From a virus: a DNA stretch of 22,769 nucleotides. Position 1 is the stretch's first letter; each line of letters starts with the position of its first letter. Location: IMG/VR virus record IMGVR_UViG_3300008262_003928, positions 1 to 22,769 of that record, one strand, 5' to 3'. Positions 3,512 to 13,349 of this stretch are shown here, one piece after another. The position numbers were made by a program, and so were the translations under genes. The notes under the pieces are model-generated. The model ran no database searches and was not told the DNA's origin. It saw nothing but the letters and a program-made list of their open reading frames with translations.

Positions 3512-3748
3512 ATGAAAACATTTGACACATATGAAAAGGTAGCAGGAATGAGTTCATGTATGAAACGTGCTATTATTGTTCATGCTAAACAAATTGACGA
3601 TGAATTTAGAGTTAACACACTAGAAGGTAATTACAAACAAGGTAAGGCAGGTGATTACTTAATGCGTGGCATCGATGGTGAACTTTATATTTGTGATAAA
3701 GATATATTCGAAAAAACTTACGATTTTATGAAGGACGAAAATGCCTAA
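3512..3748 (+). CDS. PGDYG-family small protein
   Basis: 78 residues. The central segment [20 protein letters not shown] followed by FEKTYDFM matches the PGDYG family ('pGDyl..g.dGElY.i....F..tY'), found in bacteria and T4-like phages with unknown function. The ribosome site AAAGGAAAA precedes the ATG. Its stop overlaps the clpP start by 8 bases, so the two are probably translated together. A small regulatory or substrate-related role linked to ClpP is only a contextual guess. Confidence 0.75.
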
Positions 3749-4328
3749 TCTAATACCAATGGTCGTGGAACAAGAAGCACGTGGTGAACGTGCCTACGAC
3801 ATTTACAGCCGTCTATTAAAAGATCGTATTGTGATTTTAGATACCGACGTTAACGAACATAGTGCCAGTATAATTGTAGCACAATTGTTATTTTTAGAAA
3901 GTCAAAGCAATGACGATATTAATTTCTTTATTAATAGTCCTGGCGGAGTCGTTACTGCTGGCATGGCTATCTATGACACTATGCAGTTTATTCGGCCTGA
4001 GGTTTCAACGATTGTTATGGGTCAAGCTTGTAGTATGGGTAGCTTACTTGCTACTAGTGGCGCACCTGGCAAACGTAAGATGCTGCCCAATGCACGTCAT
4101 ATGATCCATCAGCCCTCAGGCGGTGCTCGTGGGCAAGCTACAGACATGCAGATACAAGTTGAAGAAATTCTAAAAATGAAAAAGAGCTTAACTGAAATCT
4201 ATGTTAAGCACAATAGTAAGGGTAAGACTTACGAACAGCTACTTTCGGATATGGAACGTGATAAGTTCATGAGTGCTGAAGAAGCACTAGAATATGGCTT
4301 AATTGACGAAATTATCACTAAAAGATAA
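3741..4328 (+). CDS. clpP: ClpP serine protease
   Basis: 195 residues, the normal size of mature ClpP. The catalytic triad is complete: S98 in [11 protein letters not shown]123 in HMIHQPSGG and D174 in [12 protein letters not shown]. The NSPGG motif at 65-69 and the C-terminal [12 protein letters not shown] are also typical. ClpP forms a tetradecameric chamber that degrades proteins fed by ClpX or ClpA. No Clp ATPase is in the window, so the subunits presumably join host partners. Alternatively it acts as a prohead-type protease, as proposed for some ClpP-like phage enzymes, but the triad and size favour true ClpP. There is no long propeptide. It is the last gene of the 931-4328 run. Confidence 0.93.
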
Positions 4329-4349
4329 TATGCGTATATAATCGGGTAA

Positions 4350-4386
4350 CGTAGTCTGCTATAAATATGTGTAGGAGCAGACTATG
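4350..4386 (+). promoter_or_regulatory. RBS/start-codon sequestering hairpin around a late promoter
   Basis: TAGTCTGCT (4352-4360) is a perfect complement of AGCAGACTA (4376-4384). The stem extends by G4351-U4385 and C4350-G4386, so the whole AUG is paired, along with the last two bases of the AGGAG site (4373-4377). The late promoter box begins at the last base of the left arm. RNA entering from clpP contains both arms; RNA started at the late promoter (+1 about 4373) lacks the left arm. This matches the known arrangement at the T4 lysozyme gene e. Confidence 0.7.
4360..4367 (+). promoter_or_regulatory. T4-type late promoter
   Basis: An exact TATAAATA octamer, the sequence read by the T4 gp55 sigma factor. 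Placing the last A at -6 puts +1 at 4373, the first base of AGGAG, so the mRNA would have an 11-base leader. No -35 match is seen at the proper distance, as expected for a late promoter. Confidence 0.75.
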
Positions 4387-5106
4387 GCCCGAGAAGTATT
4401 TGATTGGTCCGCACTGGATCGACACACTTTATATAGTATTCTAAATGGCGCCCGAAAATACATTGTCGGGAAGAAACTCTATATTGAAGAAATTCATAAA
4501 ATCCTTTCAAAGCAAGTCAAAGAACATCTTCCAATACGTACTAAATTATTACGCGGTGCTGATCAAGAAGACGGAATTATCTACATCGGTGGCTGCTATT
4601 ATGGCGGCGAAGATGAGCAGAATAAAGATAGATTTATCGAAATAGTTTTTTGTTATTTTATGTGGGATCAATATCTTACTATTTCGGAAAGACGTTGGAA
4701 ACGAATGTGTGAAGTATTTGCTGACACTGTGTTACACGAAATCATTCACATGCGACAGTATAGAACAAGAAATTTTAAAGTTCTTCCCGGATACGAAAGT
4801 ACAGCATATAGTGCCAAATTAAGAAAGAATCAAAATTATTATGGACATCCGGATGAAATCGGTGCTTATGCTTTTAACATTGCCTGCGAAATGCATGATC
4901 GATTTGGTTCTAATAAAAAACTGATTGAAAAATATATGGACAGCAATCACGCCAATCGTCATCGTAGAAGTGGTTATCTAAGATACTTACGAACCTTTGG
5001 ACACGATCATCCTGTAATGAAACGTCTTAAAAGAAAAGTAATGTTTTATCTTCCTTATGCCGAAATTGGTAGGCCATTTAAGACATCAGACTACTTGACA
5101 TACTGA
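4384..5106 (+). CDS. HExxH putative zinc metalloprotease-like protein
   Basis: 240 residues with a clear zincin motif LHEIIHMRQYR: H118, E119 and H122. A downstream acidic residue in GHPDEIGAYA (E158) could be the third zinc ligand. The N-terminal part has a helical DRHTLYSILNGARKYI segment and IIYIGGCYYGG; the C-terminal part is basic (NRHRRSGYLRYLR, MKRLKRKV). No signal peptide or membrane segment is seen. T4-like aquatic phages carry similar unnamed proteins; activity has to be inferred from the motif alone. Late expression, if correct, fits a virion, maturation or lysis role rather than early takeover. Its start is buried in the hairpin at 4350-4386 and its last bases carry the -35 of the ligase promoter. 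Confidence 0.75.
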   Translation: MAREVFDWSALDRHTLYSILNGARKYIVGKKLYIEEIHKILSKQVKEHLPIRTKLLRGADQEDGIIYIGGCYYGGEDEQNKDRFIEIVFCYFMWDQYLTISERRWKRMCEVFADTVLHEIIHMRQYRTRNFKVLPGYESTAYSAKLRKNQNYYGHPDEIGAYAFNIACEMHDRFGSNKKLIEKYMDSNHANRHRRSGYLRYLRTFGHDHPVMKRLKRKVMFYLPYAEIGRPFKTSDYLTY

Positions 5107-5123
5107 AACAAATATAGTATAAT
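5095..5123 (+). promoter_or_regulatory. Consensus sigma70-type promoter for DNA ligase
   Basis: TTGACA (5095-5100), 17 bases, TATAAT (5118-5123): both hexamers and the spacing match the bacterial consensus exactly. RNA should start near 5130, giving a leader of about 24 bases in which I see no Shine-Dalgarno sequence before the ATG at 5154. Confidence 0.85.
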
Positions 5124-6683: not shown

Positions 6684-7355
6684 ATGTTTGTTACAAGTTA
6701 TAGAACTGCTGGTGAAATTAATTCAGCAATGATACGTGTTTATCAAAATATGATGATAGCTGTTTTGATTAGTATGGTTACTAGTTTCATAGTAGGCAAT
6801 ACACCCATGATGATGGCATTGTTTTTCGGAACGCCATTAAAATGGTTGATTATGTTGGCGCCCATTGGATTCATTTTATTTTTTAGTTTTAAAATGGAAG
6901 ACCTTAGTAAAGATACAGCCACAATGTTATTGTGGGTATTTTCTGTATTAATGGGACTAAGTTTCAGTGCTATTTTTGTCGTCTACACCGGTGCTAGTAT
7001 TGTTATGTCATTTATGAGCGCAGCTATACTTTTCGGTTGTATGACCTTTTATGGTTATTTTACAAAACGTAGTTTAGAAAGTTTCGGACAATTTTTGATT
7101 GTAGGACTAATTGCTATCTGTATCGCTAGCATTGTTAATATTTTTGTAGGTAGTAGTGTAATGACCACTGTGATCAGTGCGTTGGCTATCATAATCTTTT
7201 TGGGACTAACTGCATATGATACACAACGTATCCGTGAAATGGTTAGCTATGATAATAATGGTAATGCTGAGGTAGCAGGAGCATTGACTTTGTACTTAAA
7301 TTTCATTAACATATTCCTTAACTTGTTACAACTTTTTGGAAGTAAAAACGAATGA
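6684..7355 (+). CDS. Bax inhibitor-1 family membrane protein (YccA/YbhL-like)
   Basis: 223 residues with about seven membrane helices, roughly 24-40, 52-69, 78-101, 105-126, 134-156, 159-178 and 200-219. The family signature GLTAYDTQRIREM (174-186) follows helix six, with the conserved aspartate and glutamine. The bacterial relatives YccA (a modulator of the FtsH protease) and the YetJ calcium-leak channel belong to the same family. AAGGAG stands seven bases before the ATG. The stop overlaps the next start (ATGA). Inference: in infection it could protect phage membrane proteins from FtsH or alter ion leak and membrane stress. The fold assignment is strong; the role in the phage is not established by the sequence. 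Confidence 0.9.
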   Translation: MFVTSYRTAGEINSAMIRVYQNMMIAVLISMVTSFIVGNTPMMMALFFGTPLKWLIMLAPIGFILFFSFKMEDLSKDTATMLLWVFSVLMGLSFSAIFVVYTGASIVMSFMSAAILFGCMTFYGYFTKRSLESFGQFLIVGLIAICIASIVNIFVGSSVMTTVISALAIIIFLGLTAYDTQRIREMVSYDNNGNAEVAGALTLYLNFINIFLNLLQLFGSKNE

Positions 7356-9986: not shown

Positions 9987-10511
9987 ATGGCAAAATATTA
10001 TTCAACAAAAACATATGGCACTGACAGAGGATTAAGTTGTTGTTTTAGGCAATGGCGTAGCACTCATAGTCATTGCGCATTACTACACGGATACTCGATT
10101 GGTATCAAACTAATTTTTGAATCAGAGACACTAGACGATCGTAATTGGGTCATGGACTTTGGCGGACTCAAAGCGTTCAAAGAATGGAGTGAGTGGCAAT
10201 TTGATCATACACTTTGTGTAGCATTAGATGATCCTCACCTGGAACTTTTTAAACAAATGGCTAAACTAGGCAAACAAGCAGACGGCGGTGTCTGTGATTT
10301 AAGACTAGTAGAAGCCGTTGGTTGCGAAAAGTTTGCTGAATTAACGTATCGTACCATGAATGAAATACTAGAAGCTTATAGGGAAGGCAGAGGATGGACA
10401 CATCCAGATGGTCGTGTATTTGAAGCACGATATCCTGTAGGGCAAGGTGTTAAATTACGTTCAGCAGAAGTATTCGAACACGCTGGTAACTCAGCAATAT
10501 ACGAAGGATAA
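9987..10511 (+). CDS. QueD-like 6-carboxytetrahydropterin synthase / PTPS family
   Basis: 174 residues. The zinc-site region is recognisable: FRQWRSTHSHCALLHGYSIGIKLIFE, with H27/H29 and H34 as probable zinc ligands and C30 nearby. DDRNWVMDFGGLKAFKEW (50-68) is the conserved 'viDf..lk' segment, and QFDHTL (71-76) carries the Asp-His pair of the family. QueD converts dihydroneopterin triphosphate to 6-carboxytetrahydropterin on the path to preQ0, queuosine and the 7-deazaguanine DNA modifications found in phages. No queC, queE or folE is in this window. AAGGAG precedes the ATG by six bases. The N-terminal histidine spacing is unlike classical QueD but matches a phage-type subgroup as I recall it. 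The substrate is therefore less certain than the fold. Confidence 0.85.
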   Translation: MAKYYSTKTYGTDRGLSCCFRQWRSTHSHCALLHGYSIGIKLIFESETLDDRNWVMDFGGLKAFKEWSEWQFDHTLCVALDDPHLELFKQMAKLGKQADGGVCDLRLVEAVGCEKFAELTYRTMNEILEAYREGRGWTHPDGRVFEARYPVGQGVKLRSAEVFEHAGNSAIYEG

Positions 10512-12409: not shown

Positions 12410-12755
12410 ATTGTGCCTTGGGTTTACGACCTCGGGACGTTTTGACTTTTTCAGTAACTGCCTTTGTTACTTCTTTGGCTTTCTTTGTAGTTTTCTTTAC
12501 TGCTTCTTTAGCATCTTCTAGATTTACTTTTCCGTCTCCGTTTACATCTAATACATTAGAAATAACAGGTTGAACAGGTACACTTTCGTGTCCAATTCCG
12601 TCTGCTTTAGTTGTTTTAGAGGGAGTTTCAATCTTGTAAGGTGCTTGCGTAGCAGCATCTAGTGGGTGCTTACCATCTGAACTTTCTTTGTTTAGCATAT
12701 GGTACCCAACATAAACGATAATAGCCAAAGCTATAATAGCGATAATGATTTCCAT
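12408..12755 (-). CDS. Membrane-anchored single EF-hand protein
   Basis: 115 residues. An N-terminal uncleaved membrane helix (MEIIIAIIALAIIVYVGYHM) is followed by a polar linker rich in Lys, Pro and Thr. Then comes one canonical calcium loop, DVNGDGKVNLED (70-81), with D70, N72, D74, N78 and D81 placed as ligands; aspartate in the last position resembles dockerin loops. The C-terminal 30 residues are very basic (VKKTTKKAKEVTKAVTEKVK, ending GRKPKAQ), recalling histone-H1-like tails that bind nucleic acid or envelope. AAGGAG lies six bases before the ATG. It is one of only two (-) genes in the window. Function unknown; a calcium-dependent envelope protein is an inference from the parts. Confidence 0.75.
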   Translation of the reverse strand: MEIIIAIIALAIIVYVGYHMLNKESSDGKHPLDAATQAPYKIETPSKTTKADGIGHESVPVQPVISNVLDVNGDGKVNLEDAKEAVKKTTKKAKEVTKAVTEKVKTSRGRKPKAQ

Positions 12756-12774
12756 AAAAATCTCCTTAGGAAAA

Positions 12775-12790
12775 TATTTAGTTATAAATA
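12775..12790. promoter_or_regulatory. Back-to-back late promoters in a divergent gap
   Basis: (+) TATAAATA at 12783-12790 is an exact late octamer facing the SOD gene; the ATG follows after four bases. On the (-) strand, ACTAAATA (12782-12775) matches six of eight bases, would place +1 near 12769, and would give a 14-base leader carrying AAGGAG. The two boxes abut and lie in an AT-rich inverted repeat, AATATTTA (12773-12780) / TAAATATT (12785-12792). The (+) box is convincing; the (-) box is weak. Confidence 0.55.
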
Positions 12791-12794
12791 TTCC

Positions 12795-13349
12795 ATGACA
12801 TACAATTTTATCAAATGGGCACTTGTAGAAAGTACAAATGAACCAAAAACACTAGAACTCTATGATTTACCCTACAGCCGTACTGATCTAGACCCGTCAA
12901 TTAGTAAAGAAACACTAGATGTACACTACGGTAAATTAGCCAAAGGATATGTAGACCGTTATAATGCAGGAGAAGGAGACCCCGATTTTAACGAAGCGGG
13001 CGCCTATTTGCACAATATTTTATTTGCACAATACAAAAAACCAGAAAGCAGTAATAGTCCAACTGGTGCAATTTTAGAATTTATTGAAAAACATTTTAAA
13101 AGCTTTAATAACTTTGTAGAAAAATTTGAAGTTGAAGCTATGAAGCTACAAGGATCAAATTGGATTTACTTAGCTAAGAACGGCAAAATTAAAAGCATAC
13201 CGAACCATCAAACACGTAGTGATATTGTACTGTTAATTGATTGGTGGGAACATGCTTGGTTCTTGGATTACGGCAGCGACAAGAAAAAATATCTAGCTAA
13301 TCAATGGAAAATTATTAACTGGGAAATTGTTTCCGCTAGAGTTCACTGA
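12795..13349 (+). CDS. Fe/Mn superoxide dismutase-like protein
   Basis: 184 residues from the ATG at 12795; the frame is open further left but that part overlaps the opposite gene and has no family resemblance. After a 22-residue unusual N-terminus come YDLPYSRTDLDPSIS and LDVHYGKLAKGYV, then AGAYLHNILF, GSNWIYL and LIDWWEHAWFLDY. All four metal ligands are present (H44, H73, D149, H153), together with the active-site Tyr (Y52), the Trp after the GS motif (W123) and the dimer-bridging Glu (E152). Gly at H73-4 plus His in NHQT (H138) is the pattern I recall from mycobacterial iron enzymes. Two gateway residues are replaced: the usual second-shell His is L48 and its partner Tyr is F156. Slightly shorter than typical SODs (about 190-210). 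It would convert superoxide to O2 and H2O2 if active. Confidence 0.85.
   Translation: MTYNFIKWALVESTNEPKTLELYDLPYSRTDLDPSISKETLDVHYGKLAKGYVDRYNAGEGDPDFNEAGAYLHNILFAQYKKPESSNSPTGAILEFIEKHFKSFNNFVEKFEVEAMKLQGSNWIYLAKNGKIKSIPNHQTRSDIVLLIDWWEHAWFLDYGSDKKKYLANQWKIINWEIVSARVH

Follow-up and report, generated by a model that had tools for sequence, protein, structure and literature searches.

The window analysed here is a 22,769-nucleotide stretch of viral DNA (IMG/VR record IMGVR_UViG_3300008262_003928, positions 1 to 22,769). At the locus of interest, clpP (3741-4328) is followed directly by a gene for a 240-aa protein with an HExxH motif, HEIIH, which is presumed to be a metallopeptidase (4384-5106); these genes and the locus features described below all lie on the plus strand. 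The HExxH protein matched no Pfam family, and a fold search returned no usable match (model pLDDT 65). Several host-like genes were also noted in the window, encoding a fatty acid desaturase (1-503), a Bax inhibitor-1 family protein (6684-7355), a QueD-like protein (9987-10511), and a superoxide dismutase (12699-13349).

Between the two genes, starting 22 nt past the clpP stop codon, an 11-pair stem closes a 15-nt loop, with the left arm CGTAGTCTGCT (4350-4360) paired to the right arm AGCAGACTATG (4376-4386). A preliminary description of this DNA had listed nine perfect pairs followed by a G-U and a C-G pair, and its coordinates and pairs all checked out: C4350-G4386 and G4351-U4385 are followed by nine Watson-Crick pairs up to T4360-A4376. 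As it had also claimed, the whole AUG and part of the Shine-Dalgarno (SD) sequence are buried, with the AUG of the HExxH gene (4384-4386) lying entirely within the right arm and A4376 and G4377 of the AGGAG (4373-4377) paired in the stem. RNA spanning 4320-4420 folded at -31.1 kcal/mol compared to -20.0 +/- 3.3 kcal/mol for shuffled sequences (z -3.39; 0 of 200 as stable), confirming that the hairpin is real and more stable than expected by chance. When this RNA was compared with one beginning at 4373, the predicted late start, the stem was predicted in the long RNA and no comparable fold in the late RNA, in agreement with the arrangement first proposed. Overlooked in that proposal was a continuation of the stem beyond a two-base bulge, where six further pairs join TCGGGT (4342-4347) to GCCCGA (4387-4392, codons 2-3). 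This outer extension is particular to the window; folds of the six lineages described below showed that relatives make other outer pairs instead.

The late box TATAAATA occupies 4360-4367, with its core ATAAATA at 4361-4367, and its first base is indeed the last base of the left arm, as originally reported. In T4, late RNA starts at the sixth base after the late box. By this rule, which a cluster of genes with the spacing ATAAATA-N5-ATG supports, late RNA would start at 4373, with the AGGAG as its predicted first bases. This position falls after the left arm, which would be present solely in RNA entering from upstream, and the predicted late RNA cannot form the stem, consistent with the earlier claim that late RNA lacks this arm.

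Because TATAAATA is not rare in the window (three found compared to 2.8 expected), its count there is uninformative, and its significance was drawn instead from a related genome, G001 (contig IMGVR_UViG_3300042350_002797; 364,554 bases), which was analysed whole, the window itself being a 22.8-kb fragment. G001 contains 69 ATAAATA sites, 51 of them no more than 60 nt before an ORF start; this 22-fold enrichment was the highest among frequent 7-mers. An ORF ATG follows within 45 nt at 54 of the 69 sites, versus about 4-21% for single-base variants. Many of the genes behind ATAAATA are virion genes, including those for the baseplate wedge, tail fibre, tail tube, and virion structural proteins. 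G001 also encodes a gp55-family late sigma factor (97418-98227; phrog_12791, E 1.9e-81; phrog_234, E 6.9e-25), whose nearest counterpart, about 47% identical, is the one in PA5oct-like jumbo phages. Two marks of T4-type late transcription, a gp55 sigma family protein and (T)ATAAATA before late genes, are present in this genome, and ATAAATA is a true late promoter in the lineage. The variant CTAAATA precedes ORFs in 28% of cases, compared to 81% for ATAAATA and a background of about 8-11%.

An orthologue of the HExxH gene is carried by seven IMG/VR contigs besides the window, giving six distinct sequences with the window included. The encoded proteins are 64-70% identical, and both arms of the stem are kept in all six lineages, so that the pairing proves to be conserved in related phages, a point on which the preliminary description depended. 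Contigs L003, L005/L007/L008, and L006 were first found using a pattern that contained the arms; L001 and L032, which were found by protein alone, also retain them. A search of 50,697 phage records found no more distant orthologue, profile and peptide-pattern scans returned just the same seven contigs, and the protein-based scans identified no orthologue without the arms. In the alignment of the six lineages, stem columns 40 and 42-49 and their partners never vary, while at column 41 the window has G and the others A, giving a G-U or A-U pair, and the pair at column 50 is lost in L032 only. Nine of the 11 stem pairs are constant and one further pair changes only from A-U to G-U; the right arm and the AGGAG are invariant throughout. 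The exact box is kept in five of the six lineages, and L032 has CTAAATA yet keeps the stem.

Within the same gene, 27 of 29 fourfold sites vary and two are invariant, with pairwise fourfold differences of 40-58%. Because these sites are nearly saturated, the left arm cannot have stayed invariant by chance; at the fourfold rate, with sites treated as independent, the probability is about 3e-10 for nine of ten sites. Nor do the left-arm bases form a general promoter element, since the flanks upstream of 57 late boxes share no consensus. Conservation at another late gene was uninformative as a control, its box being preceded by coding sequence. Covariation of the arms, suggested at the outset as a check, was not found: the stem is invariant and contains no compensatory change across the six lineages. 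The argument for pairing is therefore made from the invariance of both arms and from energetics rather than from covariation, and arm invariance could stem from something besides pairing.

The computed cost of freeing the ribosome site in the window was 17.5 kcal/mol in the long RNA and 3.5 kcal/mol in the late RNA. In the other five lineages, opening cost 13.0-17.4 kcal/mol in the long RNA and 1.9-3.5 kcal/mol in the late RNA. The same computation applied to T4 leaders gave long and late values of 15.3 and 0.9 kcal/mol for gene e, 14.9 and 2.8 for gene 49, and 8.2 and 4.8 for soc. By these predictions, SD and AUG are paired in the long RNA and the ribosome site is free in the late RNA in all six lineages. 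The late promoter is likewise placed so that late RNA loses the 5' arm, with the CTAAATA lineage as a weak case.

RNA carrying both arms must come from upstream. A near-consensus, sigma70-type early promoter, TTGACA-N17-TATACT (872-900), lies 3.5 kb upstream of the element and heads the gene run that ends with clpP, with counterparts in G001 and G005. A consensus early promoter, TTGACA-N17-TATAAT (5095-5123), stands just before the DNA ligase gene, and TTGACN-N17-TAYAAT was found in the same position in all six lineages. A terminator scan predicted no intrinsic terminator between clpP and the HExxH gene. With early promoters and no terminator, read-through over the element, which the preliminary description took for granted from clpP, is plausible. 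In L001, however, a 1.2-kb minus-strand gene (1737-2894, 385 aa), which has an ATAAATA box of its own, lies precisely between the stop codon of clpP and the element; the element is unchanged despite this opposing gene. Read-through from clpP therefore cannot be the sole reason for the conservation of the element; either read-through has an effect even when weaker, or long RNA also arises nearer by.

We conclude that the element is very probably a late-only translation switch of the gene e type, a mechanism known from T4 that is new here in its gene, its phage lineage, and its depth of conservation. RNA from early promoters upstream would carry both arms and fold the SD and AUG into the 11-pair stem, leaving the cistron untranslated. 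At the late stage, the phage gp55-like sigma factor would direct RNA polymerase to start from TATAAATA in the loop; the resulting RNA would have AGGAG at its 5' end (about 4373) and no left arm, and would stay open and be translated. Counting against this reading are the absence of compensatory change, the weaker box in L032, the opposing gene in L001, and a conserved sequence, CGTATATAAT, for which the model has no need. Such regulation suggests that making the HExxH protein early does harm or serves no purpose, and so marks the gene out as a candidate for a role late in infection.

A variant of this explanation, rather than its opposite, is that two promoters are nested at the element, one per arm. 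The -10-like sequence CGTATATAAT (4333-4342) would then be a working -10, and RNA started from it at about A4349, at the foot of the stem, would have a 5' hairpin of its own; RNA from the late promoter would begin at the right arm. The result would be a self-contained switch independent of clpP read-through. All six lineages, L001 with its opposing gene among them, share CGTATATAAT unchanged, along with its spacing from the stem and an A at the expected +1, and this conservation is neither explained nor needed by the read-through model; the sequence also occurs once in G001. However, CGTATATAAT lacks a -35 or a TG extension, whereas the phage early promoters have TTGACA, and TATAAT is not a general companion of late boxes. 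The ligase gene has its own early promoter, so the silent RNA would have no obvious use. We consider nested promoters unlikely and, because no -35 is present, regard CGTATATAAT as no more than a possible candidate for a nearer source of long RNA.

The arms are invariant without compensatory change, as a protein-binding site would be, and the dyad TAGTCTGC-N17-GCAGACTA might accordingly be a DNA operator at which a phage or host repressor covers the promoter. This appears quite improbable given that the paired arms occur once per genome and always before the HExxH gene, that the right arm overlaps the SD and AUG, and that the opening energies resemble those of known RNA switches. A recurrent operator was rejected on finding a single site per genome. 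It is still harder to see the hairpin as an operator or sensor that controls translation of the long RNA and is opened by a ligand, a protein, or temperature; a conserved stem covering the ribosome site would be typical of such operators, but a promoter in the loop would then be superfluous, whereas it explains why the loop is conserved, and an Rfam search returned nothing. The hairpin's position 22 nt after the stop codon might suggest that it terminates clpP RNA or is where that RNA is processed. This is scarcely credible, since no U-run follows the stem, L001 retains the hairpin although clpP is not its neighbour there, and the terminator reading was rejected on the terminator scan, which does not list it.

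How common such an arrangement is in this phage was gauged from the late genes of G001. The ribosome site's gain in freedom when the sequence before the late start is removed averaged 3.4 kcal/mol for 41 late genes with a leader and 1.9 kcal/mol for 341 other genes (Mann-Whitney p 0.005), and gains of at least 6 kcal/mol were observed in 9 of 41 late genes versus 22 of 341 others (Fisher p 0.003), a comparison that is only indicative because many control starts lie inside coding sequence. It is clearer than a class-wide shuffle of the upstream 30 nt only, which gave a weak signal (mean 0.37 compared to 0.33; 6 of 42 at or below 5%). One strong hairpin, at box 220187 on the minus strand, precedes a 446-aa virion-like protein; its left arm contains the late box and its right arm the AUG. 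In its orthologue near position 8965 of L050 (G005), two left-arm substitutions, read by eye, keep the pairing as G-U or A-U. In another (G001 box 195777; L067-L077), the late box lies between the arms GATAATCCTAT and ATAGGATTATC before an 861-aa protein with Ig-like domains. Close relatives retain this hairpin, but it is missing where protein identity falls to 61-64%. The hairpin before the HExxH gene is the best conserved of the late-gene hairpins examined. More distant relatives of the 861-aa gene (L078-L084) have GTAAATA in place of ATAAATA about 30 nt upstream of the matched start, a hint that the late-promoter consensus has shifted in a sister lineage.

The distance from ATAAATA to the ATG in G001 also defines a separate class of 4-8 nt, comprising 11 of 53 genes (seven at exactly 5 nt), with none at 9-14 nt; over 150 kb of T4, 0 of 27 fell in this class. 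Examples of short-distance boxes in G001 (L009-L027) include 25667, 33290, 38569, 42773, 249720, and 267242. In the window, the late box at 12784 is followed after four bases by the ATG of the superoxide dismutase gene. Under the T4 start rule, boxes in the 4-8-nt class predict late RNAs that are leaderless or nearly so, and since the box takes up the SD position, read-through RNA of these genes would lack an SD. These patterns point to late genes that are either hairpin-held or leaderless. It is possible, and we propose it tentatively, that box position silences much of the late regulon in read-through RNA throughout this jumbo-phage lineage, with about one in five late genes that have a leader carrying an e-type hairpin and a further set having ATAAATA 4-8 nt before the AUG, read as leaderless late mRNA. 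The hairpin studied here would then represent one version of a general code for late-only translation.

The relaxed late box has precedents outside T4, with NATAAATA late promoters described in cyanophages and ATAAATA in the jumbo phages CBB and GAP32 (PMC2984593, PMC5259590). There, as here, the box precedes structural genes, although the parts of these accounts that deal with the promoters mention no hairpin at the box. Hairpin-held ribosome sites are established for T4 e, soc, 49, and I-TevI (PMC3014915). In gene e, a stem sequesters the SD and AUG in early read-through RNA and late RNA lacks the 5' arm (PMC3014915). The element shares with gene e the SD and AUG in a stem, a late promoter in the 5' arm or loop, and an arm missing from late RNA, and the analogy drawn in the preliminary description holds on each point that sequence can address (the late box, the conserved left arm, and energetics like those of e and 49). 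In silico, the element behaves like the experimentally established e leader (PMC3014915). The two differ in that gene e encodes lysozyme and has two boxes, whereas the HExxH gene has one box and an unrelated arm sequence, belongs to another phage lineage, and was found in no cultured carrier. Gene 49 follows the same logic, with its late box itself within the left arm. In soc, the box precedes the stem and late RNA retains part of the left arm, whereas the present element has its box in the loop and loses the left arm entirely in late RNA. A hairpin also holds the ribosome site in T4 I-TevI, where upstream RNA is silent and a late promoter lies by the 5' arm (PMC3014915), and in Aeh1 mobE, but these are homing endonuclease genes in or beside other genes, unlike the HExxH gene. 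A switch of the T4 lysozyme type on an unrelated gene, under strong selection in a large uncultured clade of T4-related jumbo phages, indicates that the device is not peculiar to T-evens; the T4 e/soc/49 class thereby gains a member from beyond that group.
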